From a virus, in IMG/VR virus record IMGVR_UViG_3300034061_004586, positions 1 through 48,617 of that record: a DNA stretch of 48,617 nucleotides. One strand, 5' to 3'. The number at the start of each line of letters is the position of its first letter. The first letter of the stretch is position 1. This document shows, in pieces, positions 8,418-39,640 of the stretch. The translations under genes and the position numbers were made by a program. The notes below the pieces were generated by a model. The model did not search any database, was not told the origin of the DNA, and worked only from the letters and a program-made list of their open reading frames with translations.

Positions 8418-8629
8418 GGCCTTCCCTCCTGAATCACCGCCCTGATGGCGCTCCGTCGGACACCGACGGCTCTGGCTACGTAGGTAAGTGAAGCGCCCTG
8501 ATCCCACAGCTGCCATGCCCAACGGGCGTCCACCTGGGCGGCATCTGCCAGCACGCGTTTCCGGGCAGGCTTGGGCGCCGGGAAGCTGATCCAGCCCCGG
8601 GCGACGGCGGTCGAGATGGTGGCATTCAC
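8414..8629 (-). CDS. Small helix-turn-helix protein
   Basis: 71 residues from GTG 8629 (GTGA overlap with 8626). The C-terminal third (GASLTYVARAVGVRRSAIRA) fits a helix-turn-helix: a helix, the AVGV turn, and an Arg-rich recognition helix. The N-terminal part is basic and Pro-rich. It is probably a DNA-binding regulator or recombination accessory protein. The exact family is not assigned. Confidence 0.6.
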   Translation of the reverse strand: MNATISTAVARGWISFPAPKPARKRVLADAAQVDARWAWQLWDQGASLTYVARAVGVRRSAIRAVIQEGRP

Positions 8630-9393
8630 ACGCGCACCCCCACTTTCGTCTCGGTGAAGATTCGAGCGTGGGTCAGCTGGCGGCACCCGCTCCGGATCAG
8701 TTTCAGCACCTCGGCGCGCCGGACGGTGATCTCGACCAGTTCTGGGTGCGCGGCGGCAAACCCTTTCAGGTCAGTCACCTCGAAGGTCCAGTCCTCACGC
8801 ACCACGGTGCCGGCGACCCGTGTCGGTTCGACAACCGCAGGCAGGTTCGCCTGCCGCTCTGCTGCTGCGGCGCGCTCGGCTGCGGCCGCCTGCTCTGCGG
8901 CGATGCGGCGGGCTTCTGCGGCTGCACGCTCGCGCTCGTTGGCTGCCATGCGCTCGGCCCGCGCGGCCTCCTCCTGTTGCCGGCGGATCTCGGTCAGCCG
9001 GGCGGCCTCCTCAGCTTGCCAGCGGCGTACCTTCTCCAGGCGTTTGCGTTCCTCCTCGGCGGCAATGCGGCGTTGCTCCACCTCAAAGGCGGTCAGCATG
9101 GCGGACACGCGGGCGATCTCGGTCTCGATGCTGGCATTGAACTCCTTGGCAGTTGCGTCGATGCGCCTGCCGATGTCCAGCACAGGGGCTTTGGCGGTCG
9201 TGCGGGATGACTCGACGGCCTTGGTCAAGGCGCGCAATTCCCGCAGCACGCCGGCACCGGCTGCGGCTTGGGTCTGAGTTCGAACGCTGACAATCAGGGC
9301 GGCGTTCTCAAGCGCCTCCTCGCGTTTGGTGATCGCGGCCGGGTCGATGGCGATCTCGATGGCGCCGACGTTCCGAAGAGCAAGCGCGTTCAT
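8626..9393 (-). CDS. Coiled-coil recombination-locus protein
   Basis: 255 residues from ATG 9393. A structured N-terminal part (about 1-90) precedes a very long Ala/Glu/Arg coiled coil (about 90-190), and a small C-terminal domain ends TETKVGVRV. This arrangement and its place next to recE/recT-like genes match DUF1351-type phage proteins found in recombination operons. It may assist DNA recombination, but the biochemical role is not established. It is flanked by ATGA and GTGA overlaps. Confidence 0.65.
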   Translation of the reverse strand: MNALALRNVGAIEIAIDPAAITKREEALENAALIVSVRTQTQAAAGAGVLRELRALTKAVESSRTTAKAPVLDIGRRIDATAKEFNASIETEIARVSAMLTAFEVEQRRIAAEEERKRLEKVRRWQAEEAARLTEIRRQQEEAARAERMAANERERAAAEARRIAAEQAAAAERAAAAERQANLPAVVEPTRVAGTVVREDWTFEVTDLKGFAAAHPELVEITVRRAEVLKLIRSGCRQLTHARIFTETKVGVRV

Positions 9394-9626: not shown

Positions 9627-10404
9627 CTTTCAGGATGTAGTTGGGGGACTCGATGATCTCGGTGGAATCGCCGTTGTACCCGGGCCAGCTTTCCGTGTCT
9701 TCGCAGGTGATCCATTGACGGATCCACGACTGCCAAGTGGCACTCGCCTTCTCGAGCGACTCGGTGCCCAGCTGGTAGACCGCCACCGCGTAGGGCGCCT
9801 GGTCTTCGACGCAGATCCATTGGAACGCTCGTGTCTCGCCGGTGATGTCGCGGTACAAATCCCGGTAGTAGGCCGCCTGCACGTCGTAGCGCAGCTGGCC
9901 GATCTGCCGACGGAATCCGTGTCTGCTGGCATCCCGGGTTTTCTTGAGGTCCACGATCACCGGCATGGTGCTGGGGAGCCAGTCGATCAGGCCCTTGCGA
10001 TCGCAGGACTCGAACTCACCGAACATCCCGACCTGAGCGCGGCCGGGCTCGGCGAGCAACCGGCCGGCGACCGGATGCTTGCGGACAGCCTCGACCATCT
10101 TGGTCACGGTCTCCAGCTGCTCCTGCTTGAACACGGTCACGCCCCGGGCCTCTTGGTCGTCGCGCCACGCGCGGGCGTCCTTGGTGCGGTAGTCGTCAAA
10201 CGGCGAGGTGGTCCACAAATAGGGCGTGCCGAGGATCTTGTGGTCCAGCATGGACCCCAGGTTCATGGCGTCGGTGCTCTCCTTCTCCTCCTCAAAGCCA
10301 ACCAAGGCGTGCGCCGGTGAGCGCGAGAACGCCTTGAGGCTGGAGATGTTGATTGCAGGGTGACTGCGGTAGGTGTTTACGTCGATAGGGTGGACCAACT
10401 TCAC
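9607..10404 (-). CDS. RecE-like PD-(D/E)XK exonuclease
   Basis: 265 residues from GTG 10404, which overlaps the recT-like stop as GTGA. GSMLDH (50-55) is the early Gly/His motif of RecB/RecE-type nucleases, D135/D141 and VDLKK (151-155) give the D...D-x-K core, and QAAYY (176-180) is the trailing Q-x-x-Y motif. It would resect duplex DNA 5' to 3' so the adjacent RecT-like protein can coat and anneal the strand. Pairing with RecT supports the call strongly. It lacks the long N-terminus of E. coli RecE, as phage forms do. Confidence 0.8.
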   Translation of the reverse strand: MKLVHPIDVNTYRSHPAINISSLKAFSRSPAHALVGFEEEKESTDAMNLGSMLDHKILGTPYLWTTSPFDDYRTKDARAWRDDQEARGVTVFKQEQLETVTKMVEAVRKHPVAGRLLAEPGRAQVGMFGEFESCDRKGLIDWLPSTMPVIVDLKKTRDASRHGFRRQIGQLRYDVQAAYYRDLYRDITGETRAFQWICVEDQAPYAVAVYQLGTESLEKASATWQSWIRQWITCEDTESWPGYNGDSTEIIESPNYILKDESPIA

Positions 10405-11405
10405 AGGGCACCCCCCGCCTTCTGGAACGCCCGGGCGATGCCTCTCTTGTTCCGCACGACCCACAGCTTGATCTCCTCCGGAAGATCCTGGGCGGTCGGG
10501 TAGGTGTCAGCCTCGGGCCACCACTCGAGGTCGGTGGCCAGCTTCGCCAGCTGCGGGTAGGTGACTCCGATCTGGGCCAGCGTGGACTCGACGGTCGGGT
10601 TCGCCGGGTCGAAGAAGCTTGCTGGCGTGGGCTCAGGAGCAGGAGCGGGCTCAGGAGCGGGCGCCGGTTCCGGGACGGGCTCGGGGGTCGGCGCAGGCTC
10701 GGGCGCCGGAGTCGGTGCTGGCACGGGCTCGGCAACCGCGATGGCCTCGGGCTCCTTCTTCTTCCTGGCCGGCTTGGGCTCCGGCGGTGTCGGCGTCACG
10801 TCCACGACCGTCGGTCGAACGACCTCTTGGGTCGCAGGCGTGTCGGCCATCTCCTCGGCGGTGTGCATCCCGAGGGCGATCTCCGGCGCGTAGGCGCGGG
10901 TCCAGAACGCGGCGGCGCGGTACTGGAGCATCTGCTCCGGCATGGTCTTCCACTTGGAACCGTTCTTGGAATACCAGCCCTCGGCCTTGGCCATGGCGAT
11001 CGTGACCAAGGCGCCGACCAGTTCGAGGTTGCCCTCGCGCTCGACCGCGAAGGCGCGGCAGCCCCAGTCGTCTGTGCCCTCCTTGCCGACCCAGCGGAAC
11101 CGCATCGGAGAGAAGCGGCCGCAGCTGTTGACGGTGGCGATCAGGAACGCCGCGCTCCAGGTGGGCTTCCCGTGGATCGGGACCATGGACTGCATCACGG
11201 CCATGACCGAGGCGCCGATGCGCTGGCTGAGTTCGAGCGCGATGATGCAGTTGCCGAGGTTGGCCTCGCCCCGATAGGAGTCGGGAACGAGCGTGCTGGA
11301 CGCAAGGGCCTTGGCCATGCGCTGCACGGAGACGAACGCGTTCTCGCTGGAGAACGCGCTGAGGGGTTGGGATTGCTGGGTGGTTGCGACTGGGAGGTTG
11401 CTCAT
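10401..11405 (-). CDS. RecT-like single-strand annealing protein
   Basis: 334 residues from ATG 11405. The first ~200 residues match the phage RecT-type pattern, with FVSVQRMAKALASSTLVPDS near the N-terminus, NCIIALELSQRIG, and the GKPTWSAAFLIATVNSCGRF segment. It would anneal complementary single strands after exonuclease resection. Residues about 215-270 are a Pro/Glu/Ala repeat linker, followed by an extra ~65-residue domain (FFDPANPTVESTLAQIGVTY onward) not usual for RecT. It is the first gene of its operon and its start codon lies inside an inverted repeat. Confidence 0.8.
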   Translation of the reverse strand: MSNLPVATTQQSQPLSAFSSENAFVSVQRMAKALASSTLVPDSYRGEANLGNCIIALELSQRIGASVMAVMQSMVPIHGKPTWSAAFLIATVNSCGRFSPMRFRWVGKEGTDDWGCRAFAVEREGNLELVGALVTIAMAKAEGWYSKNGSKWKTMPEQMLQYRAAAFWTRAYAPEIALGMHTAEEMADTPATQEVVRPTVVDVTPTPPEPKPARKKKEPEAIAVAEPVPAPTPAPEPAPTPEPVPEPAPAPEPAPAPEPTPASFFDPANPTVESTLAQIGVTYPQLAKLATDLEWWPEADTYPTAQDLPEEIKLWVVRNKRGIARAFQKAGGAL

Positions 11406-11446: not shown

Positions 11447-14400
11447 TTAGGGGATCGATCGGTCGATTTTTTCGCGGACGCGCGTGCGGATGCGCTCGGT
11501 GTCTCGCGTGATGATCTCGATTGCCTGTTTAGGCGTGGCACCAACCAGCAGTTCGCCCTTCTGGAGCACGTATTTTCGGTATTCCTGACCGACCTCACGC
11601 TGGTAGCGGTAGAACTCGTCGGGCGTCATGGGGCGCCGTTGACCGTTCGATTTGATCTTGGCGGCTGCGGACGGTGTCGGCAGGAAGACTCCCCGCTCAG
11701 AGAGGGTTGCGAGCGTCGTCCATGCAGGGTCATCCCGCCGCGTTTTGATCCACCGGCTGAACGGATGCTTCATCATTTCGATTGGCTCGCCGAGCACGTT
11801 GACAGCGGGGCCAGGGCCGACATCGCGGCGCAGCATGGGCACCTGTTGGAGGAAATACTCCGAACCGATCTTGGCCTGATAATACTGGGGATCGAAGTAG
11901 GTATCGACCTGCTTGAGGATGTTGGGGATGAACGACCCCGCGAGCCTTCCGGCCCATCGCGCCAAGCTCTTGTTGACCAAGTCGTCGGCGTCGTACTTGT
12001 AGGCGTTGGCCATGCCAACAAGCTCCGTGAACGCGGAGATGGCAGGCGCGTCGGTGAGCACGAACATTCCCGCCTGCGCGGCATCCTTGAACTTGCCCAG
12101 GATGGCGTCCCGGTTCCACTCGGCCGGGTTGTAAAGCTGTCGATCCCGGAGCTCTCCGATCGCGGCCAGACCCATGGCGAACGGCATTTGGCGGTACGAG
12201 ATGAAGTTGTCGCCAATGCGGATCGAGTACGGTTGTCTGCCTTGGGCCAACAACTGGCGCTTCTTGTCGGGGTCAAGCGACCGGAACGACCCGGTGATGT
12301 CGATGTTCCGCTCGCCGTCCTTGTCATCGTCACCGAGAAACGTGACGCCGGCCAACGCCATGAGGGCGGTCCCGACGGACGCCTTCATCAACAGGAGCTT
12401 TCGTTCGTTGCCGCTGATTTCGTACCCGAAGGGTTTGTTGATGCGCGACGAGTTCGACAGGTAGTAGCGGGTGAACCCCCAAGGCGTGTAGTCGATGCCG
12501 CTGTTGGTGGCGTTCGCGGCAAATCGCAGGAACGCCAATCCCGTCGCCATTTTCAGTCCGGGATACTTTTTCTCGGCTTGGTTGAGCCACTGGTAGAACA
12601 GCCCAACCACGCCGGTCGGGTCCTGCTTGAACGCGGCTTGGCGCGCGAGCTCCTTGGCATCGATCAGGATCTCGGAAGGAATCCGTTCCCCAAGAATCTC
12701 CCGAACACGCTCGTTCATTCGCTTTGCAGGAGTCCCCTCGGCGGAAGCCTTGTCGCGCGCCAGCTTGATGTCGGCGGCATCTGGGATCAGGTACTTCTGG
12801 ATCAACTCTTGGTTGCCTTCGCGCGCGATGATCCAAGCCTTCATGGCCTCGTAGTTGGACGTGACGGCGATGTGATCCATGGCGTCCATGAATCGGGAAA
12901 CGAAACGCAGGTTGCTGATCACCTGAAGCGCCGCGTTGTCTGAATCCTTGAGGACCTCCAGCGTGCTGGTGGGACGTTCTGGATCAAAGTTGATGCTCCG
13001 GAAAAACTCTCCCTTCGACACGATGCCGGGCAAGTCCTTGGCTGAACGACGCAGACCATCGAGCCATGCGGAGGCGATGTAGGGCGCTGCCTTCGGGCTC
13101 TGGACAGACGCCAGGCCGGCATTGATCGCGCTGTTGATTATTCCGGTGCCCTGCTCGACTTGGGTGGTCAGGCCCGACAGGACGGACCCGTACCAGTAAT
13201 CCATGATGATGTTGCGCGCGCGAATGCCGCCCTCGCGCTGCATCAACTGGTACATATCCTGGATGATCTTGTTCCGGGCGACACCAGTGGTCTTCTGGGC
13301 CAGCTGCGCCATCGCAGCGATCTTCTCTGCCGTCGCACCGTTGAATTGAGCCACGCCGAACTTGGGGGCGATGGCATTACGGAACGCCTCGTCGGCCGCC
13401 TCGGGATTCGTCAGCAGGCCAAGATTGGCCCACTTGATGATCTCCGGGATGGAATCGTAAATCTGCTTTCTAGTCTTCTCCTTGACCTCGGGAAGGCGCA
13501 CCTGCTTGCGGAACTCCTCGCGGACGATCTTGTTGCGCTCCTTCTCGAAAGCGTTCCCAAGAAGGTTTGCCAGTTCGATTTGGCCGGCACCACTCAGCGT
13601 TTTGAGAATCGGGTGCTCCCGGATCATGTCCAAGAGGATCCGCTTGTAGTTGCCCTGCTTCTCTAGGCTGGAGGTCATTATCTCCTGCCAAGAGATTCCA
13701 AGCTCAGCGCGCGCCTGCTTGAGTTCGCGAGAGACGACGTTGTCAGCGATGGACAGGGTGGCCCGCAGGTTGGCGATCGCGCGCTTGGAGGCGTCCAGCA
13801 ACCAGCGGCGAATCTGGTCGGAGGTGACCTCTGGGAACGGCAGTTCCTTCTGCCGCTCGTTGATGAGGTTGTAGTAGCTGAGGGTCGGGGTCAGGTAGGC
13901 GATCTTGTCGATCATGCGGCGCCGGGCCTGACCGCTCTGGCCGAAGTCCTGAGCGCCAGCCTGGGCGGCAACCTCACCGATGTTCCGAAGAAGACGGACC
14001 CACCGGGCTTGGTCGATCGGGTTCCTGAACGCACCTTGCAAACGGACGTTGGTCCGTTCCAGCAACTCGCCAAGGATGGTCTGCTGGATTGCCGGTGTGA
14101 TGCCAAACTGAGCGGATCGATTGGCCGAGGTTGCAGCCGTGAACGCCTCCTCGAGGTTGTCCTCGAACTGATCCACCCAATCACGCGCTGCGCTTTCACG
14201 TTCCGCGTTGGTCTCCCGCACGATGCGCCCTTGGAAGAATCCGGCAGACGGACGGCGGCGAGCGCCGGCAGCAGCCCTGGGAGGCTGAATCTCGCGCTCC
14301 TCGAACGCTCCGACACCAGGGGTCTCGAACGCGCCTTCGACGAGCTTGCCGATCTCGACCTCCGCAGCGGCGAAGTCCGTGTCCGACGGAGCGTTTTCGC

Positions 14401-17400
14401 GGACGTACTGAATGGCGGCCTGACGCGCCTGCACGATGTCACGGGTCTTGAGGTAGACCGCGCGCGCCGCCCGCAGCGCCAGGTTGATGACAGCCAGCGG
14501 AATGGCCGCCGTGGATTCGTAGGCGCCTTGGGGCCGCGTGGCCTCGATCGCCTTGTTCAGCAGATTCTCGACCTTGTCGTACATCAACCGGCCGAGGTCG
14601 GGATTCAACCCCTCTGCCTGCGACAGGAATCGAGGCGCATCTGTCGCGTCCATCGTCCCGACCAAGAACGATCCCTTCTGGACCAATCCCTCTGGGAAAA
14701 ACCCTTGGATGCCGGCGTTCGACCAGACGGGTCGAAGCGTGTTGTCCGCTCGGATGCGAACCTCCACCTTGTTCCCGGCAACGGGTTTGAGTCGCAGAAG
14801 ATCGGGTCGCACCCGCTTCATTTCTCCGGCATCACTCGCCTCCCCCTTCACGAACACCTCGGTGCCCGTCTTCAACAGCGAGATCGCCTCCGCGCGCGGA
14901 ACGCTGATGTCCTTCACCTTCCGTTCAGGCGTGAAGTTGGTCGGCATCACGATGCCGGTCTTTCGCTTGCCGGTATTCGTGGTGTAGATGGTGATCTTTG
15001 GGCGAACCTCAGAGGCCCCGCGAGCGGCTTGGAATCCCTTCAGCAGGTTTCCGGTCACGATGTACCGCTGGTCGGTTGATTCCGTGGTGGTCGCCCATTC
15101 CTCTGCGGCGTTGGAAACCTCTTGGCCAAGGGAAGACGCCTCGGATGGGCCTTCCGACATGGACAGGGGCATCGATGCCCGGGAGCGCACCATGTTCCGA
15201 ACGAGAAGCAGCTGGTGATCGGATGGCCGAGTGAAGTTGCCCGGATCGTTTGATTTCAGTTTTAGCCCGATGGGCACCGCCACGTACCCAAACGAGTTCT
15301 TGAACGCCCGCCCGATCTTGCCGTAGGCCGAGATGACCGTTTGTCGGGTCTCCTCGAAGGCGTCCTTGACCATTTGGATCTGCGCCGGATTGACCTCGCG
15401 CGCCTCCATTTCGGAAACACGCTGCTGCTCAAAGGCGCGACTTTGACGCAGCCATCCTTCGGCCACGCCCTTGGTGGCCATGCGATTCTTTGAAGCCTCT
15501 TCGGTCGCGGCTTCGTAGGTCGGCGGCGCCTTGGGCGGTTTGATGGAGACACGTTCCATCGCAGACGGGCCGTCGAAAGGCGTTGTCCCTGTTCCTGGTG
15601 TGAACTCGGCCGATTCAACGGTGCGCGCTCGAAGGTCATCGACGTTGGCCTTGAGGGGGTTCTCACCAACCTCATCCAGAGCGCGAATGCGGTCGGTGTA
15701 GAGCTCAGAGATGTCGCGCCAGAGCTTGGCCGCGTAGTCATCCGGAAGGATTACGAAGTGGCCCGTTGCCCAGCGTGCATAGTCGCCATTCTGATCAACG
15801 TCCTCATCCATGTTAGGTTCTCCACTTGCCCGTAAAAAACCCATTCCCATTTCCAGCATTAGAATCGGATTTGAACGGAGCACGTCGAACACGACTTTAT
15901 CCCCGATCGAATTGAAAATGTCCGCTACCAAGCCCTCGTTTGCGGTGAGATCGGATTCCGTGTCCGCCGAGGTGTTGGCGTTCAAGGAAGCCATCTTCCG
16001 GCGTAGCAGCACCATGAATCGGTTCTCGGCCGCGAGTGAAGACGACAGCACTACGTAACGCGGCAGGCTGGTCTGACCGAAACGCATGATGCGCCCGAGC
16101 ATCTGCATGAAGTCGTTGATGTCAGGGGCGGCCTGACCAACGATCATCACGCGTCGCCTCTGGTCCTTGAAGCGGGGGTCCGTGTGGGCGCTGGTTCCAG
16201 TTGAGCCCGACTTGTTGACCAAGATGGCGTCGAGACGACCGTTGTTGAAGTCGTCCAAGATCACCCGACGATCTCGCTTATTGCGTCCAACAGAATCGGC
16301 TACGCCCTCTTTAGAGATGACGATTTCATTATTTCTACCAGTGATTTCGTCGATCGAATAGCCGGCGTCTTCAATGCGTTTTTTGATGAAATCGATGGGA
16401 GAGATGGGCATATCTCCGAAATCTCCACCTTCAATTTCGTCGCGGATGGCTTCGTACTGTTGGCGGGCATCCTCCGGAAGTTCTTCCGGCGTCAGTTTGA
16501 TCGTGCTTTTAGTGTTTGCGCCTTTGTCTCGAACAGTGATCTCAAGCAGTTTATCTAGCTGCCTTAGCAAAAGCCCTTTGTAAGAAATCTCGTAACCTTC
16601 ATTTTTGAGGTTTTCAATAGGCCCCTCCAAAGTGCTGTTTATTGCAATAAAAGGCTTTTCGTTTTCCTTCAAGACGCGAATTGCATAATCTGCAATCGCC
16701 TGAGACTTCAAAGACAAAATGTATTGCGTCGAAAGGTTGAATAGCTGGCTCCCGAAATTGACCGACGTAATACTTACGCGTCCCTCTGTTGAAGCGCGGA
16801 CCTGATTTTCCGCGTTTTGCATACCCTTTGCGACATTTGAGATTTTCCGGCTCAATTGCAGGATTTGTTTCAAAAAGTCCGTGTAGACATCTGCTAGTTC
16901 GCGCTCACGCTCCGCGTTGTCCGTTGATGTTACGAAATCAAACGGCACGCCTCCCCAGTTTTGTTCGCGTCGCACAAACTCACCGGATTCCGCGAGCATA
17001 GAGGTCAATGCCTGTTGTAGTGCCAAACCGCCGCTGTTCAGCAGGTCGGTCATTTCGGTTGGTTTCAATCCAGCCCTTTGAATCAGCGTCTTGAGCGCAT
17101 AAAGACCCAATGTGTCGGGTCGCTTGGCAAACGTGGCTGATGCGAAATACGCGCCCTTGGACGCGGGCAGCACTTGGTCAAACCGGATGTTTGTGTCGGA
17201 GTTAGCGCCAGCCGCAAGGTGGGCTTCGTCCAGAACGAAGATAGCGTTCGGTGCGATACGTGAAAGAGCCTGCCAGATTGGTCCGAATGGCTTTGCAATG
17301 CGCTTGTTTTTGCGTCTACGTGCCGCCTTATCGTTTTCCTCAAAACCTTCCAATACGTCGTCCTTTAGTTGATCGTATGTGGTAAAAAATGCGTTTGTGT

Positions 17401-20400
17401 TTTCAGGAAGCTCTCCAGTTGAATTGATTCCTTCAAGAGCCTTTTCAAAACTTTGTTTTGATTGTCTAACTTTTACCGTTTCTCCAGTAGAGGAAATGTA
17501 ATCGACTTTTTTGTTGGTGACATACGGCCGAATGCCAGTCTCCCCGATCGCCGGAAGGTCGCGGCCTGCCATGTCGGAGTAGAGCGTCGGCTTGGCGGTG
17601 ATGAACACCGGGATCAGTCCATTGAGGCGGGCATACCGCAGAACGGCCGCAACCGTGCGCCCCTTGCCCACGCCGGTCTGGTCGGAGTTGATCAGAGCGG
17701 ACCCGCGCTCGATGTTCCGGATCGCCAGTCCCGCAGCATCGATTTGCGCGGCCGACATGACCTTGAACAACTGGTCCTTGGTCATCTGCAACCGATTGGC
17801 GACGTACTCGTCGATCGGCATCTTGACCTCGGCCTCCAGTTCACGAAGGGCGCGCTCGGTGGCGTCGGCGATGTTCGACGGGCTCACCAATCCGGTCTCG
17901 GCGTTCTTGCTCTGGCTCTTGTACGGCTTGGTCCTGGCCTCTGACATGGCCTCAGGCTCTGCCTCGATCTCGGGTTCCATCGGCACCTCTGGTTCCGTGG
18001 GCACCGTGGCCTGATCGATGCCAGCGATCACCTCGTTGGCTTGTGTGCGCGTCAGGTCGTCCAACCCTTCGACGGTGTTGGCGGTTTCCTGCCAGATGGC
18101 CAGCAGGGAACGCTTGAGCTTGTCCCAGATGTCCGGCAGGTCTGCGCGAACCTGGGCGGCGAACTCGGCAAACCTCCGGATGCCAGCCTCCGCATAGAGG
18201 CCAGCCATGCGGGCGCCGATCACGATGATCTCGGGATCCACGCCCATGCCAACGCCACCGAGCTTGTCTCGCAGCTGCTTCTTCAGCGCCTCCAGTTGCG
18301 CCTGCTTTTCGGCCGAGAGCTTGGATGTCAGTCCGGGCCTTGCGGCAGGCGGCGCAACCACAGGTTCAGGCCGTCCTGCCGCCACGCCTCCAGCTGCTCC
18401 TGGTTGTTCGACTGCGGGCGCTGTTGGAGCCACTGGTCCAGCTGCCGGCGGTTCACCTGAAACAGGAGCTCGTTGTTCCGGAACACTTGGAACAACTGGT
18501 CCGGGTCCAGCAACAGGCTGTTCGGCGGGCGCACGTTCTGGCCGCTGTCCTTCAGGTAGGACTTCAGCACCCGGGCGCGCTCCTGCAACGCCTCCGGGTT
18601 GTCCTGGACCTGTTGCAGCTGGTCGGCCCACAGGAGGGAGATTTCCGACGCCAGTTGGTCCTGGGGTGACAGGGGGTTGGATTTTCGGTTGGCGAGCTTC
18701 ATTGATCAGGGTTTTGAGTTCTGCCCAGTTGGTGTAGACGCGGGGCGCGGAAATCCACGGGCGCACGAAACCGCCATCGACAGACGACGGTGTTGGGCGC
18801 TTGCCATCGATGACAACGACATCGACCGGCCATCCGGCACCCATCTTGGAATAGAGGTCTCCCTCAAGAGTGAAAAAGTCGGTGACGTTGAACCGCTTGA
18901 AAAGATCGAGGTACTCCGCGCGGTCGTAGGACTTGATGCGGCTTTCCGGGGATCCGAGCTTGTTCGATTGCGATCCCGTCTTGGATCCGAGGATCAGCAC
19001 GGCCTTCCCATCGGGAGCCATGGCTTCGAGCGTGTTGAGAGCGATCGCAAGATCGATGCTCGAGCTCTGAGGCTTCCCGAGGGTGCTGCGGAAAAGCTGG
19101 AAGGTCTCCTTCTGCCCCTCGATGAATCGCGCGCCGAATGGCGGGTTGATGATCACCCGATCGGGTTGCAATGCGTCGAGTGAATCGAAGAACTCTTGGC
19201 TGACGGCATCCAGGCCGGTCGCAGGCTTCCCGATGAACCGCTCCAACCGCGCGCGCCGGTTCGGATCGAGCTCGTTGGCGACGATCTCCTGACGCGCCGG
19301 GTCCGAAGTCACCAAGAGCATCCCATTGCCAGCGGTGGTCTCCGCAACGCGCTTGCCGCCCGCAACATCCGCCAACACGCCGGCGAGGTAGGCCAACGGC
19401 GGAGGCGTGGAATACGCCTGGGCGGTCTTGCTCACGGCCGTGCGGGTGCCCAGCTGCGGCTGCTGCTCGTACCGCTGGGCGAGCTTGTCGTATGTCTCGT
19501 TCGGATCGATGCCAGCCTCCCGGTCCTGCCGGACGATGTCGGCGGTCTCCTGAACGATCTGGGACTCGAGCTCCTCCTCGGCGGCTTTCTTGGCCGGCTC
19601 GATTGGCTTCTGGGGCGGAACGGGGGTCGGCTCGGCAGGCGGAAGCGGCGCCGCTGGAGTCTCGGCAGGGGGCGGCGTGACCACCTCCGGGGTGATTTCC
19701 TCCGGCGGCCGGATCAACTCTTCCGGGACGACCGGCGCTTCGGCTTCGGGCCCGACTCCTTCGGGAGGCCGCCCTCCTTCAGCAATTTCTGGCAGTCCCA
19801 CTTGGACTTCGGGTTGCGGTTCTTCTCCGCGAAGCACGCCCGCATCTGGGCCTTGTTCTTGAATGGCACTGGGTGTTGGGGTTGGGGGTTCCGGTTGGGG
19901 TTCAGGCTCCGCAGGCGGCGCAATCGCCTCCTCGACAGCGGTCGGGATCGTTGGTTCGGGTTGGATCCGAATGGGGCCAGACGGCGGACCTCCGGCGTTG
20001 ATGCCTCCGAGTTCCTCGGTGATGTCCGGCGTGAGCGCATCCTCGATGCCGGCGACCGTGGCGGCGGAGTTGGGCAGAGGCGTGTTCGGGTCCGCTCCGA
20101 TCGCGGCGCGGGCAGCCGCATTGCGTTCCCTGAAATCTTGAAGCTGACGCAGTCGCTGACCGCGCATGGCCCTTCCGGCCCCGCCAGTCACCAGCCCAAC
20201 CAAACCGCCAACAGCGCCTCCGATCTTGGCGGACTCGATCAATCCTTCACCAATCTTCTGCTCAGGGTTGTAGACCTGCTTGGCGACCAAATTGCCAAGC
20301 GCCTGCTCCGATGCTTCCTGGGCGGCTTCCTCGAGGCCGGTCTGAACAGCCTCACGAATGACACGCTTGCCTGCTTGGCCAGCGAATGCACGGCCGATTG

Positions 20401-21088
20401 CCGGGACGGCGCCAAGCGCCCTTTCCGTAATTGCGCCGACTGGGGCCGTCAGCAACGCCGCTTGGTACTGCTTTACCGGCTTCTCGGCGCGGAGACGGTC
20501 GGCCTCGCCCATGTCACCCTTGGCCAAGGCATCGGCAATTCGCACGTCATACAGGCTGCCTGCACGCTGCGCTGCATCCTCACCCGCGCTGAGTCCGTAG
20601 GCCAGCTGGCCCGCCACAGGGATAGCCGAAACCGGAAGTGATCCGACGCCGCTGGCAACCTGAGTCAGGAAATCCTCCTGCCGCAACGGACTGACCGGAA
20701 ACGCCTCCTCCGCTCCGCGCTGGAGCGCCTGGCCGATCTGGAACGTCGGACCGGCTTCGATCTCAGCCGCACGAGCTTGCAGAACCTCCGGGGGGACCTC
20801 TTGGGTACGCTTCTGCCAATCGGCCAAACGACGCTCGTATGCCGCCATTGCGGCAGGATTTTCCGCCTGCGCAGCAGAGAGGAGCGGAGGTGGTTCCTCG
20901 AGCCCAAGACGCGCCAAGCCCATCATGGCGCCGCCAACCATTCGGCCGCCCTCGCGCATCAAAGCGGATCCGGCCGCAGGCAATGCACCCTGCCGAAGGG
21001 TCTGTGCGAACTCCAGCAACTGGTTTTCACCGATCCGGTCATCAACCTCGACCAGACCAACCCCTTCGATGTCAACGATGCGTGGCAT
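11447..21088 (-). CDS. Giant polyvalent ejection protein with methyltransferase and SF2 helicase domains
   Basis: 3,213 residues from ATG 21088, one fifth of the genome. Residues about 1-330 are Ala/Gly-rich with amphipathic helices, like internal virion proteins. A Pro/Glu linker follows. About 540-790 is an N6-adenine methyltransferase (TAGNGM near 583, INPPFG near 647). After a second linker, about 1090-1760 is a strawberry-notch-type SF2 helicase: GVGKGR near 1139, DEAH near 1287, QMLGRIMRFGQ near 1667, and a later YIVTGNLLKGF motif. From about 1900 on it is helical virion-type sequence with one hydrophobic span near 2900. It is likely ejected with the DNA to methylate or remodel it on entry, as proposed for DarB-like polyvalent proteins. 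Domains are seen; ejection is inferred. Confidence 0.8.
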   Translation of the reverse strand: MPRIVDIEGVGLVEVDDRIGENQLLEFAQTLRQGALPAAGSALMREGGRMVGGAMMGLARLGLEEPPPLLSAAQAENPAAMAAYERRLADWQKRTQEVPPEVLQARAAEIEAGPTFQIGQALQRGAEEAFPVSPLRQEDFLTQVASGVGSLPVSAIPVAGQLAYGLSAGEDAAQRAGSLYDVRIADALAKGDMGEADRLRAEKPVKQYQAALLTAPVGAITERALGAVPAIGRAFAGQAGKRVIREAVQTGLEEAAQEASEQALGNLVAKQVYNPEQKIGEGLIESAKIGGAVGGLVGLVTGGAGRAMRGQRLRQLQDFRERNAAARAAIGADPNTPLPNSAATVAGIEDALTPDITEELGGINAGGPPSGPIRIQPEPTIPTAVEEAIAPPAEPEPQPEPPTPTPSAIQEQGPDAGVLRGEEPQPEVQVGLPEIAEGGRPPEGVGPEAEAPVVPEELIRPPEEITPEVVTPPPAETPAAPLPPAEPTPVPPQKPIEPAKKAAEEELESQIVQETADIVRQDREAGIDPNETYDKLAQRYEQQPQLGTRTAVSKTAQAYSTPPPLAYLAGVLADVAGGKRVAETTAGNGMLLVTSDPARQEIVANELDPNRRARLERFIGKPATGLDAVSQEFFDSLDALQPDRVIINPPFGARFIEGQKETFQLFRSTLGKPQSSSIDLAIALNTLEAMAPDGKAVLILGSKTGSQSNKLGSPESRIKSYDRAEYLDLFKRFNVTDFFTLEGDLYSKMGAGWPVDVVVIDGKRPTPSSVDGGFVRPWISAPRVYTNWAELKTLINEARQPKIQPPVTPGPTGVGNLPPVGRPAATGPGQPGGVAGARPGAEVLPEGQRPERAPAEQPVAGPGPVVPSVPEQRAPVSGEPPAAGPVAPTAPAVEQPGAAGGVAAGRPEPVVAPPAARPGLTSKLSAEKQAQLEALKKQLRDKLGGVGMGVDPEIIVIGARMAGLYAEAGIRRFAEFAAQVRADLPDIWDKLKRSLLAIWQETANTVEGLDDLTRTQANEVIAGIDQATVPTEPEVPMEPEIEAEPEAMSEARTKPYKSQSKNAETGLVSPSNIADATERALRELEAEVKMPIDEYVANRLQMTKDQLFKVMSAAQIDAAGLAIRNIERGSALINSDQTGVGKGRTVAAVLRYARLNGLIPVFITAKPTLYSDMAGRDLPAIGETGIRPYVTNKKVDYISSTGETVKVRQSKQSFEKALEGINSTGELPENTNAFFTTYDQLKDDVLEGFEENDKAARRRKNKRIAKPFGPIWQALSRIAPNAIFVLDEAHLAAGANSDTNIRFDQVLPASKGAYFASATFAKRPDTLGLYALKTLIQRAGLKPTEMTDLLNSGGLALQQALTSMLAESGEFVRREQNWGGVPFDFVTSTDNAERERELADVYTDFLKQILQLSRKISNVAKGMQNAENQVRASTEGRVSITSVNFGSQLFNLSTQYILSLKSQAIADYAIRVLKENEKPFIAINSTLEGPIENLKNEGYEISYKGLLLRQLDKLLEITVRDKGANTKSTIKLTPEELPEDARQQYEAIRDEIEGGDFGDMPISPIDFIKKRIEDAGYSIDEITGRNNEIVISKEGVADSVGRNKRDRRVILDDFNNGRLDAILVNKSGSTGTSAHTDPRFKDQRRRVMIVGQAAPDINDFMQMLGRIMRFGQTSLPRYVVLSSSLAAENRFMVLLRRKMASLNANTSADTESDLTANEGLVADIFNSIGDKVVFDVLRSNPILMLEMGMGFLRASGEPNMDEDVDQNGDYARWATGHFVILPDDYAAKLWRDISELYTDRIRALDEVGENPLKANVDDLRARTVESAEFTPGTGTTPFDGPSAMERVSIKPPKAPPTYEAATEEASKNRMATKGVAEGWLRQSRAFEQQRVSEMEAREVNPAQIQMVKDAFEETRQTVISAYGKIGRAFKNSFGYVAVPIGLKLKSNDPGNFTRPSDHQLLLVRNMVRSRASMPLSMSEGPSEASSLGQEVSNAAEEWATTTESTDQRYIVTGNLLKGFQAARGASEVRPKITIYTTNTGKRKTGIVMPTNFTPERKVKDISVPRAEAISLLKTGTEVFVKGEASDAGEMKRVRPDLLRLKPVAGNKVEVRIRADNTLRPVWSNAGIQGFFPEGLVQKGSFLVGTMDATDAPRFLSQAEGLNPDLGRLMYDKVENLLNKAIEATRPQGAYESTAAIPLAVINLALRAARAVYLKTRDIVQARQAAIQYVRENAPSDTDFAAAEVEIGKLVEGAFETPGVGAFEEREIQPPRAAAGARRRPSAGFFQGRIVRETNAERESAARDWVDQFEDNLEEAFTAATSANRSAQFGITPAIQQTILGELLERTNVRLQGAFRNPIDQARWVRLLRNIGEVAAQAGAQDFGQSGQARRRMIDKIAYLTPTLSYYNLINERQKELPFPEVTSDQIRRWLLDASKRAIANLRATLSIADNVVSRELKQARAELGISWQEIMTSSLEKQGNYKRILLDMIREHPILKTLSGAGQIELANLLGNAFEKERNKIVREEFRKQVRLPEVKEKTRKQIYDSIPEIIKWANLGLLTNPEAADEAFRNAIAPKFGVAQFNGATAEKIAAMAQLAQKTTGVARNKIIQDMYQLMQREGGIRARNIIMDYWYGSVLSGLTTQVEQGTGIINSAINAGLASVQSPKAAPYIASAWLDGLRRSAKDLPGIVSKGEFFRSINFDPERPTSTLEVLKDSDNAALQVISNLRFVSRFMDAMDHIAVTSNYEAMKAWIIAREGNQELIQKYLIPDAADIKLARDKASAEGTPAKRMNERVREILGERIPSEILIDAKELARQAAFKQDPTGVVGLFYQWLNQAEKKYPGLKMATGLAFLRFAANATNSGIDYTPWGFTRYYLSNSSRINKPFGYEISGNERKLLLMKASVGTALMALAGVTFLGDDDKDGERNIDITGSFRSLDPDKKRQLLAQGRQPYSIRIGDNFISYRQMPFAMGLAAIGELRDRQLYNPAEWNRDAILGKFKDAAQAGMFVLTDAPAISAFTELVGMANAYKYDADDLVNKSLARWAGRLAGSFIPNILKQVDTYFDPQYYQAKIGSEYFLQQVPMLRRDVGPGPAVNVLGEPIEMMKHPFSRWIKTRRDDPAWTTLATLSERGVFLPTPSAAAKIKSNGQRRPMTPDEFYRYQREVGQEYRKYVLQKGELLVGATPKQAIEIITRDTERIRTRVREKIDRSIP

Positions 21089-21091
21089 AGG

Positions 21092-21952
21092 TTACTTGAG
21101 TGGCGTGAAGGTTGCACCAAGCGGCGCATTCGGGTCGAAGGTAATCCGTCCGACCGGGACGGCATTGGTTGCACGCGCCTTTGAAAGACGTTCGGCAATC
21201 TGCTCGGCCGTCAGTTTGATGTCCATCGGTCCCTCTGGAGTTTCGATGGTGATCTTGCCTGGGTAATCTGTCTTGGCAGGCGTCGCAGCCTTGGGCTTTC
21301 GCATTATCACGTTGCGCCCAGCCACGCGGCCCGCCGTCATGCCCTCTGGAGGCTCAACACGTTGCGCTGGAGCGCCAGGTGCGGCGCCCGACATGATGTC
21401 GAAAATCGTCGCTGGTCCTTGGCCGGTGATGGCCGATTCAAGATCCGCAGGAATCTCCGCAGACGATCCGGAAGGAAAGATTCCCTGTGACGCCAAAATC
21501 CGATCAAACTGCTGCTGATCTTTGGTCCTCTGGACGATTCCTTCAGCGCGACCACGATTGTAGCGCGGCGATTTTCGATCCTCCTCGGTCAACGTGAGAC
21601 CAGGGATTGATGCACCAATGGTTTCCGCGAATCCAGCCGTCTCCAGCAGCTGCTCTCGATCGCCCGCCTCTTTCATCTTTTTTGCCGACTCAATGAAGTT
21701 GATTGAGCCGTCCGGATTGTAGGTCAGGTTTTCTCCGAACTTGATGGCCAAGGCATCCTCGCGGCCTTGCGCTGCGATTCGCGCGGCATCGGCCCGCTGT
21801 TGTACCAAGTCCTGATAATACCTCTCCCTGATCGCCGCCTCTTCCCGGCGCTGCGCCAAGGCGTCTTCGCGCTCCTGCCGGCGCTGCGCCAGCTGCACGC
21901 CCTGAAGGTACGACTGCCCGATGTTTTCGAGTCCTGAGAATGGGTTGGCCAT
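21092..21952 (-). CDS. Coiled-coil virion/ejection protein
   Basis: 286 residues from ATG 21952. The N-terminal 80 residues form a strongly charged coiled coil (LAQRRQEREDALAQRREEAA), the middle is Gly/Pro-rich, and the C-terminus is a short basic region with a TIETPEGPMDIKL beta segment. It lies 4 bp from the giant gene and 7 bp from another virion gene. Position and composition suggest an internal virion or ejection protein. No family is named. Confidence 0.6.
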   Translation of the reverse strand: MANPFSGLENIGQSYLQGVQLAQRRQEREDALAQRREEAAIRERYYQDLVQQRADAARIAAQGREDALAIKFGENLTYNPDGSINFIESAKKMKEAGDREQLLETAGFAETIGASIPGLTLTEEDRKSPRYNRGRAEGIVQRTKDQQQFDRILASQGIFPSGSSAEIPADLESAITGQGPATIFDIMSGAAPGAPAQRVEPPEGMTAGRVAGRNVIMRKPKAATPAKTDYPGKITIETPEGPMDIKLTAEQIAERLSKARATNAVPVGRITFDPNAPLGATFTPLK

Positions 21953-21958
21953 GGTATT

Positions 21959-22711
21959 TCAGAGTAGACCGGCACGACCGTAGCCGACCGGCATTCCAGT
22001 TTGATAATTCCAGTCTCCGCCGCCGCCGGCACGGGTTTGCGCTCCAAGTTGAGCGAAGCCAAGGTTGGTCAAACCGGATCCGAGCGACCCAAGACCTTGA
22101 CCAACAACACCACCGGCACTCGGCATCGAGGCAACGCCGGCCAAGGCGTTCATTCTGGAGATACGTTCCGATTCACGGAGGCGAGCAATGTCGGCAGGTG
22201 TGAACTCGTAGTTTACAACTGGCGCCAGCGGCGTTGTGCCGAGGATGTTAGCGAACTGCTGTCCTCCTGCCTGCTGCAATGCCAGAGACGTGCGTCCGAT
22301 GTCGCGGGCCGTGAGATTGCGTGCAGCTTGGCTGCCGGCAAACCCGCCTGCCACAGACCGGCCGGCCGCCTGCCGTTGGACTTGGGCCAAGACGTCCGGG
22401 GGTAGCTCGCCACGGAGAAGCGCCAACGCATTCTCAGAACGTTTGGCTTGGGCCTCTTGGTAACCCGGCACCTGGATGCCGAGGGATTCCAGAAGCTGGG
22501 CGCGGGCAAATGCGTTCCGCTGGGCTTCGAGCTCCCGCGTTCGTGGTGTCAGCTGCTCGGATTCTCCGATGATGGCAGGAATGTCGAGGCCCGGAGTCTC
22601 AGCTGCGCTCCTGGCCTGCTTGCGTGCCGAGCTAGCAGATGAAGCCTGAAGGCCCATTCCGACACCTGCCGTGACAACCCCGGCTCCGATTGCTGTGGCT
22701 ACGAATGACAT
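21959..22711 (-). CDS. Probable internal virion (ejection) protein
   Basis: 250 residues from ATG 22711. The N-terminus (SFVATAIGAGVVTAGVGMGL) is a Gly/Ala/Val hydrophobic helix with small residues, typical of ejection proteins that insert in the host envelope. An Ala/Gln/Arg-rich helical middle and a Gly-rich C-terminus (AGGGGDWNYQTGMPVGYGRA) follow. It overlaps the cupin-like gene by 13 bp and precedes two more presumed ejection proteins. Membrane insertion is inferred. Confidence 0.65.
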   Translation of the reverse strand: MSFVATAIGAGVVTAGVGMGLQASSASSARKQARSAAETPGLDIPAIIGESEQLTPRTRELEAQRNAFARAQLLESLGIQVPGYQEAQAKRSENALALLRGELPPDVLAQVQRQAAGRSVAGGFAGSQAARNLTARDIGRTSLALQQAGGQQFANILGTTPLAPVVNYEFTPADIARLRESERISRMNALAGVASMPSAGGVVGQGLGSLGSGLTNLGFAQLGAQTRAGGGGDWNYQTGMPVGYGRAGLL

Positions 22712-23154
22712 GGTAAGTATTGGTTCTGCCTCATGTACGTGAGGTCGTTCAAAAGCTCTTCTGGGTCCCGCTTGTTATCGAGGTTCAGGTGGACCGTGGT
22801 CCAAACAGTGTCCTCATGGATCAGCAGGAGGCGGCGCGTCCCGGGCTTTGTGATGCCGGAGTAGGGCGCCGTGTAGGTCACGCATCCCTCGTTCTCGCTG
22901 ACCACGGTGACCTTGCCCTTCGTTATGAAGAACGGGTTGTCGAACTTGTGGATGCGGCTGGTGATGACCGACCCGGCTGGCATGAAGATTTCCCGCACGT
23001 ACATTCCATCCGGAAAGGTGTGCGTCAGCGGGCACTCCTGCGGCGGCAGGTTGGCAACGAATGCCTCCCACCGATCCAGCCGATCGTCGAACGACACCGT
23101 CTCGTCGGCCAGGAAGTCCAGCCACGTCACAGGTTGTGGAGGGGCGACTTCCAT
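22699..23154 (-). CDS. Cupin-fold virion-locus protein
   Basis: 151 residues from ATG 23154. The central part (REIFMPAGSVITSRIHKFDN, then PFFITKGKVTVVSENEG) has the beta-strand and Gly spacing of a cupin barrel, ending with a C-terminal helix. One His is present in the first motif but the full metal-binding set is not evident. Related small cupin-like genes occur among phage tail genes; the role may be structural. It overlaps the upstream gene by ATG/stop sharing. Confidence 0.6.
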   Translation of the reverse strand: MEVAPPQPVTWLDFLADETVSFDDRLDRWEAFVANLPPQECPLTHTFPDGMYVREIFMPAGSVITSRIHKFDNPFFITKGKVTVVSENEGCVTYTAPYSGITKPGTRRLLLIHEDTVWTTVHLNLDNKRDPEELLNDLTYMRQNQYLPCHS

Positions 23155-24242
23155 CAGATGAACCCTCCGAACCGATACTCGATCTTCGCCGACCCGAACG
23201 GCTGCACGTTGATCACGCTTCGCTCGTTGGGGCTGTAGGCCTCCAACTCGTTGCGCAGCGCCCGGAGGGCCAGCTGGATCTCGCGCTCGGCCTCCGGGTA
23301 CTGGTTGCGATCCTCCTTCTGGATCGCCTTCATCATGTGCTTGACCGCTTGAAGGTTGCCGATGAACAGCCAGTCGGAGTCCACCACGGCCGGGATGAAC
23401 TCCAGGCGAACGATCGCCTCGATCACCGTGTTGGTGCAGGCTTCATCGGGCGGGACGCACCCGTCGCCGTGGTCGATGCAGTCGTTCTCGGCTGTCGCAT
23501 TGCAGCCGCTGGTCCCGCCGCAGACCTGAGGCATATTGATCAGGTACGTCCGGCGGTATTCCGGGTTCTGCTCGCTCGGTGCCCAGATGGCAATCTGGGT
23601 CTGCACGCCGGTGCTCTGGTTGACCGCGACGATCGTGAGGCTCCCCTGTGTCAGCGGCTTCTGGGCTCCGGTCAGGCCCGGTTGCTTGAAGACCGACACC
23701 GTCTCGACGTAGGCGGTCACAGCCGGATTTGGAAGGGTGACGTACTCGCCCCAGACGTACTCGCCGGTGACTGCATCCAACGTGCGGATCGGGTTGCCGT
23801 TCACGTCGAGACCCTGCAACAGCACCCGCTTGCCAGCGTCGGCGGTCAGGTCCGGGTAGATGCGGATCTTCGAGGCGCCGGTGAAGTCCCGATACTGGTA
23901 CACGATGCCTCGGTCCAGCAGCTGGTCCTGCTCGCAACCCTCCCGGCCGCACCCGGTTCGCGGCGCCCGCTCGTCCGTCTGGAACTCGTACCACTGATTT
24001 TGGATCGGGATGTTGTCGCCGCAGACGTTCATCGCCTCCACGGTCTTGACCTCCCGGGGCCAGGTGATGCATCCGGCGGTGACGCAGATGCGGAGCTTCT
24101 TGTACGTGCCCCACCACTTGCCCATCTCAGCAAGCCGCTCCTGCGCCTCGTTCAGCAGCTGGAGAAACCGATCGTCGCAGGTGGCCAGCCCGATGGCTTG
24201 CGGGATCGTCGAGTTCTTGGCTTGGGCGAGGGTCTTTCTCAT
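23154..24242 (-). CDS. Virion structural protein, possible head-tail adaptor
   Basis: 362 residues from ATG 24242. The N-terminal helix (LLNEAQERLAEMGKWWGTYK) precedes a large beta-rich middle, and the C-terminal helices (QYPEAEREIQLALRALRNEL) end the protein. This helical-beta-helical arrangement resembles gp4/tail-tube-A type connectors of short-tailed phages. An unusual number of Cys sit in one middle segment (residues about 265-290). The call rests on position between tail genes and composition, not on a specific motif. Confidence 0.5.
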   Translation of the reverse strand: MRKTLAQAKNSTIPQAIGLATCDDRFLQLLNEAQERLAEMGKWWGTYKKLRICVTAGCITWPREVKTVEAMNVCGDNIPIQNQWYEFQTDERAPRTGCGREGCEQDQLLDRGIVYQYRDFTGASKIRIYPDLTADAGKRVLLQGLDVNGNPIRTLDAVTGEYVWGEYVTLPNPAVTAYVETVSVFKQPGLTGAQKPLTQGSLTIVAVNQSTGVQTQIAIWAPSEQNPEYRRTYLINMPQVCGGTSGCNATAENDCIDHGDGCVPPDEACTNTVIEAIVRLEFIPAVVDSDWLFIGNLQAVKHMMKAIQKEDRNQYPEAEREIQLALRALRNELEAYSPNERSVINVQPFGSAKIEYRFGGFI

Positions 24243-24243
24243 G

Positions 24244-25209
24244 TCAGCGGATGGCTCGGGCCATGACTCTCCAGTTGGCTTCCGTGATACCCACTTGGAT
24301 GTTAGTGGTTTTGTGGAAGATGTTGATGTTCAGGCCAAGCGTGGAACGACGCAGCCCGATCACGCTTAGGTTGGCGTATGCAGTGAACATGATGCCGTGT
24401 TCACCGGTCGAATAACCCAGCGACCCAAACGGGATGTAGTCGTTCACGTCGTACCCGTTCACCGCGACATCGCTTGTGACGCAGATGATTCCGATGTCCC
24501 AGAAAATCGGCATGACGGAAAATCCATGGGTGAATGAAACCCCGTTTCCGATTGCTGGAATCGCCTGATAACCCGCCACAGGCGTGATGTACCCCGACTC
24601 CCAAAGGGTTACCCCAGGCGACCCGGATGTTCTCAGAAACTGGCGATCGACTCCTGGCAAGATGTAGCCAGGCGGCACAATGTTGTGCGTCAGCAGTTGA
24701 AACTGAGTGCCGTCGTAGATCACAACGGCCATCTGGCCGGGAACGATGTCGCCAGCGGCAAGCGCGACGGCGCCGTACTTCGTGATCGCCTTCGGACCTT
24801 TGCCATCCACGTCGAGCGTGCTGGCACCGGTGTTGAGTGCTGTCGGGATGAATGCGTAGGTGACGCCGGTTCGGTACGCCTGATTGGCGCCTGGTGACGC
24901 CGGCAGCAACGTCAGCGTGTAGGCGTTTGCGACGCCGCCCCCAACGCCATACGTGAATTGAGTGGTCGCCCGGGTCCACCCAGCTGGGGGCGTGGTGTTG
25001 TATTTGAGGACCTCGACAGGATTGCCGCCAGCATCCAGCCGCAGCCAATACAGCGACAGGTTGGCCGGCGCCACCGAGTTGGCAGCCCACTCCGGAGAGG
25101 CGTTGAACTGGGCGATCATTGCAGCCGCGTAGGCCTCGAGGCGATCCTGCTCGGACGCGTAGCAGGCTGGGGGCGGCAACTCGCCGGCGGTAAGGTTGAT
25201 CTCAGGCAT
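24244..25209 (-). CDS. Tail fibre-like protein
   Basis: 321 residues from ATG 25209, 2 bp after the beta-helix gene. A short conserved-looking N-terminal head (INLTAGELPPPACYASEQDR) with a helix is followed by Gly/Thr/Ala beta-rich sequence, including a STLDVDGKGPKAITKYG segment of the kind found in collar or shaft domains of fibres. The C-terminal 90 residues have the aromatic beta pattern of a receptor-binding tip. It likely binds the host surface. Confidence 0.65.
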   Translation of the reverse strand: MPEINLTAGELPPPACYASEQDRLEAYAAAMIAQFNASPEWAANSVAPANLSLYWLRLDAGGNPVEVLKYNTTPPAGWTRATTQFTYGVGGGVANAYTLTLLPASPGANQAYRTGVTYAFIPTALNTGASTLDVDGKGPKAITKYGAVALAAGDIVPGQMAVVIYDGTQFQLLTHNIVPPGYILPGVDRQFLRTSGSPGVTLWESGYITPVAGYQAIPAIGNGVSFTHGFSVMPIFWDIGIICVTSDVAVNGYDVNDYIPFGSLGYSTGEHGIMFTAYANLSVIGLRRSTLGLNINIFHKTTNIQVGITEANWRVMARAIR

Positions 25210-30144: not shown

Positions 30145-30187
30145 GACGCTTGAACCGATTGAAGTCCCATCCCAAGATTCCGGCAAG
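30145..30187. promoter_or_regulatory. Divergent intergenic control region, tail versus packaging
   Basis: The 43 bp between the divergent ATGs at 30144 and 30188 must serve both structural operons. Plus-strand TTGAAC (30150-30155) with CAAGAT about 17 bp on is a weak promoter match; the minus strand offers TTGGGA and similar. No strong ribosome site is visible for either gene. The assignment comes from layout. Confidence 0.3.
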
Positions 30188-35308: not shown

Positions 35309-35574
35309 TTCTGTCTCCCAAGCAAGAGTTTCAGCGCAGCAAAGAGCGCGTCCAGGCGCTCGAGCGAATGCTGGACACGGTCGAGCTCCAAGCCGCATTG
35401 CTGGCGGCCTTCAACAATCTTTGCTGGAACCTGCCTTCCTCGGACAACCCACAGCACGGCTGGAATGCCAACTGCAAACGAGCCGGAGCTCGGGCGCTGA
35501 TCGAGGAGTTGCAGAATCTGGCTGTCATCCGCGAAACCCCCAAACCAACCAACGCCAACCTTGAACCAACCTGA
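35305..35574 (+). CDS. Small coiled-coil protein after portal
   Basis: 89 residues from ATG 35305, overlapping the portal stop as ATGA. It is an all-helical N-terminal half (SKERVQALERMLDTVELQAA) with a Trp- and Asn-containing second half (GWNANCKRAGARALIEELQN). It ends in a Pro-rich tail that overlaps the scaffold-like gene by 14 bp. It may be a head-assembly accessory protein. Confidence 0.6.
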   Translation: MILSPKQEFQRSKERVQALERMLDTVELQAALLAAFNNLCWNLPSSDNPQHGWNANCKRAGARALIEELQNLAVIRETPKPTNANLEPT

Positions 35575-39234: not shown

Positions 39235-39639
39235 TCAAACGAACTCAGCGAATGTGTAGGACGGGTTGCCGGAGGTTGGTGCGACGCTCAGGGCGCCGAT
39301 GTAACCATCCAGCATCAAAGGGTCAGAGTGCTTCGATCCAGGGTTGTGAGGAGCAAGCGCAATGTGGTAATCCGTGATCGTTGCTCCGGTGCCGAACTTT
39401 ACGAACAACTCTTCGTTCTTCTGGTTCTGGAGCGTGAACTTCTTGCGGAGCGGGTTTGCCGCAGACGTAGCCGTCGCGGTCAGCAATCCTCCTGGGCTTG
39501 TGGTCGTCAGCGGCGCGCCTGGCGAGGCTGCCAGAATCTGCTGGAGCAGGGTGACCATGTAGGTCTCCTTGATTCCAGGCGACAGGCAGTCGAAGCACCC
39601 GCTCAACGCCGCGATTTCTGCTGATGTCAGGGATGGCAT
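39235..39639 (-). CDS. Virion protein with GCFDCLSPG head motif
   Basis: 134 residues from ATG 39639. It starts PSLTSAEIAALSGCFDCLSP, with the short Cys-containing motif GCFDCLSPG-x-KET also present at the N-terminus of the upstream 422-residue protein. The C-terminal ~80 residues are beta-rich (KKFTLQNQKNEELFVKFGTG) and could be a small decoration-type domain. It may attach by the shared head motif to the same partner. Confidence 0.6.
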   Translation of the reverse strand: MPSLTSAEIAALSGCFDCLSPGIKETYMVTLLQQILAASPGAPLTTTSPGGLLTATATSAANPLRKKFTLQNQKNEELFVKFGTGATITDYHIALAPHNPGSKHSDPLMLDGYIGALSVAPTSGNPSYTFAEFV

Positions 39640-39640
39640 T

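Follow-up and report, generated by a model that had tools for sequence, protein, structure and literature searches.

The window analysed here, that is, the whole 48,617-bp stretch of viral record IMGVR_UViG_3300034061_004586, is a complete phage genome. The same 127-bp direct repeat is found at both ends (1-127 and 48491-48617), indicating that the genome is complete and terminally redundant, or was circularly assembled. A megablast search against phages gave no matches. Three large ORFs, 33038-35308, 35561-36811 and 41288-42889, lie at positions plausible for the portal, scaffold and major capsid genes; none was matched in the family libraries against which they were run, and the phage therefore appears to belong to a divergent lineage. 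Two adjoining ORFs, 39235-39678 and 39641-40909, have near-identical, unusual 'SGCFDCLSPGxKET' starts and are apparent paralogues.

A single uninterrupted ORF of 3,213 codons, with its ATG at 21088, takes up 19.8% of the 48,617-bp record, in agreement with the first-pass annotation, which had described one gene occupying a fifth of the genome; it lies on the minus strand. This giant gene is the last of a tail/ejection operon, a late or virion context, and the order along the minus strand is tail-type genes, a 250-aa gene, a 286-aa gene, the giant gene, RecT and an exonuclease-like gene. The features are as follows.

28105-30186, 25212-28103, 24244-25209 and 23154-24242, minus strand: tail-type genes
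22699-23154, minus strand: tail-type gene, short tail fiber-like (phrog_12032, E 1.3e-28)
21959-22711, minus strand: 250-aa gene with a Gly/Ala-rich hydrophobic start; by position and character a probable gp14-like ejection protein
21092-21952, minus strand: 286-aa gene directly upstream of the giant gene; probable ejection protein in the gp15-like slot
about 20084-21780: recombination cassette, reaching from the 3' part of the 286-aa gene through codon 335 of the giant gene (comparison of relatives L007 and L010)
11447-21088, minus strand: giant ejection/polyvalent gene (single ORF, relatives, purifying selection)
20084-21088, minus strand: residues 1-335 of the giant, N-terminal ejection module (phrog_2206 match, N4 gp50 profile match)
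19502-20083, minus strand: residues 336-529, Pro-rich linker (composition; partly low conservation)
18689-19501, minus strand: residues 530-800, gamma-class N6-adenine methylase (N6_Mtase, invariant motifs, PADLOC mad2)
18329-18688, minus strand: residues 801-920, second Pro/Gly-rich linker (composition, conservation)
17909-18328, minus strand: residues 921-1060, GVDPE helical module (phrog_10089, HMM matches)
15509-17908, minus strand: residues 1061-1860, strawberry-notch (Sno)-type SF2/SWI2-SNF2-clade motor (Pfam, alignment, AlphaFold, Foldseek)
14159-15508, minus strand: residues 1861-2310, Sno-type helicase C-terminal extension (TGN motif at 2012, HMM matches)
13199-14158, minus strand: residues 2311-2630, segment also found in L025 and, with weak similarity, in L026
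11450-13198, minus strand: residues 2631-3213, internal-virion-protein-D (IVP-D) module (homology to L014 and L025-L027; hhalign)
10401-11405, minus strand: RecT annealing protein, directly downstream of the giant gene (phrog_561, 4e-67)
8626-9393, minus strand: exonuclease-like gene, downstream of the giant gene

The pattern of two small ejection-type genes ahead of the giant one recurs in the close relatives as well as L025-L027, with a similar arrangement in Burkholderia podovirus JC1, and RecT follows the giant gene in relatives too. The 250-aa protein had no family match above the cut-off and no tblastn match in phages. The tail gene at 28105-30186 matches two adjacent ORFs in relatives (L005, 17-1192 and 1122-4334), which suggests duplicated or exchanged tail-spike domains.

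A search of viral contigs recovered the giant gene in 10 contigs, at approximately 80% identity and with its architecture kept. The ORF is full length, at 3,150-3,278 aa, in six loci, some of them near-identical to each other. The methylase, GVDPE module, helicase and C-terminal segments have dN/dS ratios of about 0.06-0.10, indicating purifying selection, although these values are approximate because synonymous sites are near saturation; the Pro-rich linkers, whose ratios are unreliable, were left out. In one relative, L013, an in-frame TAG near contig position 15292 (about residue 2312) splits the gene, through either inactivation or sequence error. A search of host and prophage genome contigs with the C-terminus and the methylase-helicase as queries returned no relatives.

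The methylase region carries STP at residue 560, TAGNGM at about 585 (ETTAGNG at 582) and INPPFG at about 646-648, the last two as originally reported. The Pfam N6_Mtase match (E 5e-4) is just under the curated cut-off, and PADLOC mad2 matches the region with an E of 6.9e-8. The assignment is secured by the alignment, in which STP, ExxxGxG and NPPF are invariant between the window protein and three distant phage proteins, those of BS-TP4, Acinetobacter phage MD-2021a and L025. LPD36 was not matched N-terminal to the methylase in the domain libraries searched. The GVDPE module gives a DarB-like phrog_10089 match (E 1.3e-20, best stretch residues 930-1160) and HMM matches to L025, BS-TP4 and JC1 gp69, and is common in DarB-like and polyvalent proteins; it usually precedes the methylase, but here it follows it.

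The motor is of the strawberry-notch type according to Pfam, with Helicase_C_4 at E 4.8e-19 (69.6 bits against a curated cut-off of 30.5) and AAA_34 at E 3.9e-8 (33 bits against 27). Its Walker A (GVGKGR, 1139), DEAH (1287), SAT (1317) and QxxGRxxRxxQ (QMLGRIMRFGQ, 1662) motifs are kept, with DEAH generalised to DExH, throughout the aligned helicases, distant relatives included. YIVTGNLLKGF (2009), which had been counted as part of the SF2 set together with GVGKGR, DEAH and QMLGRIMRFGQ, instead falls outside the helicase core, in the TGN region of the extension. The TGN triplet is nearly invariant there, and the extension HMM matches other Sno-helicase proteins, including stand-alone ones of about 1,020 aa. 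This conserved extension may correspond to the C-terminal winged HTH (SnoC-wHTH) of strawberry-notch helicases. AlphaFold modelled residues 1061-2260 from 23 sequences with a pLDDT of 82.5, and Foldseek places the motor nearest to the solved folds of the SWI2/SNF2 ATPases ISWI, Chd1, CSB and RapA; the top viral fold matches cover both helicase and extension. A PDB sequence search with the helicase and the C-terminus as queries found nothing meaningful. Thus Pfam, alignments and fold matches bear out the proposal of a polyvalent protein with a methylase and a strawberry-notch helicase. The 'DarB/strawberry-notch' label holds in its second half only, the helicases of P1 DarB and JC1 gp69 being SNF2-rel.

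How unusual this arrangement is was judged from 69 viral-contig ORFs with a Sno-type helicase, which came from the best-scoring 80 matches and are not phylogenetically independent. An N6-adenine methylase lies upstream of the helicase in 58 of the 69, always in that order. Within the same best-scoring matches, the GVDPE module precedes the methylase in 17 ORFs and lies between methylase and helicase in L052 and L053, two near-identical ORFs that make up 2 of the 19 other cases. Order had been offered as the mark of a possible new subtype; methylase-then-helicase is in fact the rule, and it is the position of GVDPE that is uncommon. Size, the other proposed mark, is not distinctive, because methylase-helicase proteins in this best-scoring set are as long as about 6,200 aa and a published relative, JC1 gp69, takes up 22.1% of its genome (PMC9144972). 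LPD38-like ends were found in 27 of the 69 ORFs and internal-virion-protein ends in three (L040, L041 and L055), again among the best-scoring 80 matches, and contig L025 provides a fourth case. Stand-alone Sno-helicase genes of about 1,020 aa are present in phage contigs L062, L070, L075, L076, L078, L079 and L081, with no detectable methylase of the window family within the contig stretch examined.

Both ends of the protein resemble ejection proteins. Residues 1-335 have a short 'IVDIEGVGLVEVDD' start followed by an Ala/Gly-rich helical segment, and give a weak match to the PHROG virion RNA polymerase family phrog_2206 (E 1.7e-4). A profile of the window family broadened with L027, L085, L086 and L095 matches N4 gp50 at 256-488 with 20.3 bits, the highest score among 300 shuffles being 6.7, whereas the window-family profile without these intermediates did not reach N4 gp50. 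By sequence comparison, then, the N-terminus is related to that of the N4 virion RNA polymerase through intermediate sequences, in line with the ejection-type N-terminus proposed earlier. The phrog_2206 match is confined to the N-terminal part, and an RNA polymerase domain was not matched anywhere in the window protein; tblastn with the N-terminus against phages also gave no match. The module recurs close to the N-terminus of several further methylase-helicase giants, and it is also related to several other giant virion-type proteins.

The close relatives carry two exchangeable allele types of this N-terminus. On both sides of an exchanged block, L007 and L010 share mostly 82-98% identity, against about 38-60% within it. 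This block starts about 800 bp ahead of the giant gene's start codon, stops about 1,000 bp into the gene, and corresponds to roughly 225 C-terminal residues of the 286-aa protein plus the N-terminal 335 of the giant, after which identity recovers abruptly. Since T7 gp15 physically partners gp16-N (PMC8954989), the co-exchange fits a similar partnership between the N-terminus and the 286-aa protein, although it could also have arisen from simple gene adjacency.

The virion character that the first-pass annotation had ascribed to the C-terminal part was upheld by profile-profile alignment with IVP-D proteins (hhalign 99.95%, E 8e-38, 543 columns). The comparison set comprised six internal virion proteins, among them Syn5 gp45, ProddE, CRP-804 and HTVC041P, and profile scores were 35-72 bits, as against at most 4.3 bits in 300 local shuffles. 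The module has the motifs 'PYSIRIGDxFISY' and 'SFIPNxxKQVDxYFDP'. Podovirus ctQWt234 (MW202801) has a further match to the last ~580 residues, a 1,121-aa protein encoded by the final gene of its operon; that protein has no enzyme part and itself matches phrog_6651, 'internal virion protein'. On the strength of these alignments, the last ~580 residues are homologous to IVP-D of Syn5-, pelagiphage- and Desulfovibrio-type podoviruses (Autographiviridae-type). Scans with the L025 and L026 C-termini matched only themselves. Direct homology to T7 gp16 was sought by profile alignment and nothing was detected. A divergent LPD38 was also considered and showed no detectable relation, some resemblance at 'N(V/K)xxGxPI' and 'MTPDEFY' staying below threshold. 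Segment-wise modelling, which had been recommended, gave a SWI2/SNF2 fold for the motor; residues 2311-3213 were modelled as almost all helical at low confidence (pLDDT 51.6), and were left out of the fold search.

The gene product is a variant of the polyvalent/DarB-like class, which is already known, and not a new kind of protein. Iyer et al. (2017) predicted methylase-helicase dyads to be injected and antirestrictive, and noted the Sno branch (PMC5512222). The window protein is like these Sno-branch dyads in its STP-bearing gamma methylase followed by a Sno-type motor, its large size and its late-gene context, but it ends in IVP-D rather than LPD38 and has GVDPE between methylase and helicase. 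The closest isolate-derived relative, gp3 of Bacteroides phage BS-TP4 (PQ571277, 5,391 aa; methylase 36%, helicase 34%), differs in having InPase, ddrB-ParB and LPD38 and in placing GVDPE before the methylase. JC1 gp69, a DarB-like protein of 4,515 aa, has been found in virions by mass spectrometry, with 51 peptides (PMC9144972). It and Bcep22 gp75 share with the window protein a size close to a fifth of the genome, the last place in the virion operon, a methylase with an SNF2-clade motor, and GVDPE; unlike it, they have an SNF2-rel helicase, an SLT lysozyme N-terminus, LPD3 and LPD38.

P1 DarB is likewise a methylase-helicase. It is virion-borne and antirestrictive, properties that the window protein would share; it protects DNA in cis after entry (PMC5512222) and its first 30 residues direct it to the capsid (PMC9024508). 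DarB differs in its SNF2-rel helicase, its length of 2,255 aa and its want of an internal-virion-protein C-terminus. The window helicase profile matches it over just 29 columns with 2.6 bits, and methylase similarity is weak. Because the helicases of DarB and JC1 gp69 are SNF2-rel and that of the window protein is Sno, the latter is no DarB orthologue, although by analogy it may work like DarB. The IVP-D proteins of Syn5, pelagiphages, roseophages and Desulfovibrio phages have homologous C-terminal ~540-580 residues and an equal operon position, but are 1,100-1,400 aa long and lack the methylase-motor insert. N4 gp50, the ~3,500-aa ejected virion RNA polymerase (PMC12633501), is also a giant enzyme with a related N-terminal segment, for which beads-on-a-string passage has been proposed; it carries an RNA polymerase in place of the methylase-motor and a different C-terminus. 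What is new here is the fusion to an IVP-D tail, the uncommon module order, and the recombination cassette of N-terminus and upstream protein.

We suggest that the giant is probably an ejected antirestriction methylase-motor, occupying the slot of T7 gp16 and the N4 virion RNA polymerase in a podovirus-like phage. Its domains, motifs, ejection-operon synteny, C-terminal homology, selection and exchange cassette were computed directly. The reading follows from the IVP-D-like C-terminus, the position in the tail-ejection operon, the N4-related N-terminus, the invariant motifs, the remodeller/RapA-like fold, the low dN/dS and the literature on JC1, DarB and N4. Weighing against it are an N6_Mtase score below the Pfam cut-off, the failure to reach T7 gp16, the low confidence of the C-terminal model, stand-alone copies of the helicase, which allow the motor a role outside ejection, and an N4 link that runs via intermediates. 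From the families named above, we infer that the protein would be present in virions and ejected, and that it would methylate, translocate and counter restriction. As the largest ejection protein, its methylase and Sno-branch dsDNA translocase would replace the gp16 lysozyme or the N4 RNA polymerase. It would be packed in the head and exit via the tail as flexibly linked domains, the N-terminus docking on the upstream ejection protein or proteins at the envelope. The C-terminal internal-virion-protein part would then reach the cytoplasm and grip DNA, and, with the motor tracking along the incoming linear DNA, the methylase would modify adenines or block sites ahead of host restriction enzymes.

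The main job of the translocase might instead be drawing the genome into the cell, with methylation secondary or marking DNA that has entered; transcription pulls in the T7 genome, and the same has been proposed for N4. In both N4 and T7 the protein occupying this slot remains with the ejectosome (PMC8954989, PMC12633501), the C-terminal part belongs to an ejection-protein family, and the window fold is of the SNF2 clade, whose motors travel on double-stranded DNA (PMC5512222). However, coupling to a methylase in 58 of 69 relatives from the best-scoring 80 matches points to a joint role, and MW202801 and Syn5-type podoviruses carry the same C-terminal module without any motor; we consider an entry role of this kind unlikely. 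The methylase-motor could also be part of the ejectosome itself, a motor held at the inner membrane by the protein's ejection domains and reeling the genome in while the methylase marks the threading DNA in one ATP-driven step, an idea to which we give little credence. If it were true, the exchange cassette would tune docking to different envelope tunnels, with the engine kept constant.

That the protein is not ejected at all, and methylates DNA late in the producing cell before or during packaging, its virion-like parts serving only to bring the enzyme to the procapsid, also strikes us as improbable. The late-operon location implies late expression, methylated packaged DNA would be equally protected in the next infection, and stand-alone helicase genes do exist; but both termini resemble ejection proteins, and the cis action of P1 DarB follows entry (PMC5512222). 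Even less probable, in our view, is an injected dyad that modifies host DNA or, with RecT and the exonuclease, repairs or circularises the entering DNA. RecT and the exonuclease-like gene do lie downstream on the same strand, and the RecT position is kept in relatives, but RecT is common in phages, which makes adjacency weak evidence, and a methylase is no repair enzyme. An assembly chimera or a fortuitous long ORF, for which nothing speaks except the in-frame stop of L013, is refuted by the relatives, with the same architecture in 10 contigs and low dN/dS, and we assign it next to no chance.

An antirestriction-type methylase-motor in the ejection slot offers a testable model of the way in which DarB-like proteins encounter the DNA as it enters, and the co-exchange of its N-terminus with the upstream protein points to which parts may dock together. 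Our results also suggest that the ejection slot is a general delivery chassis, carrying a lysozyme in T7, an RNA polymerase in N4 and, here, a methylase-motor.
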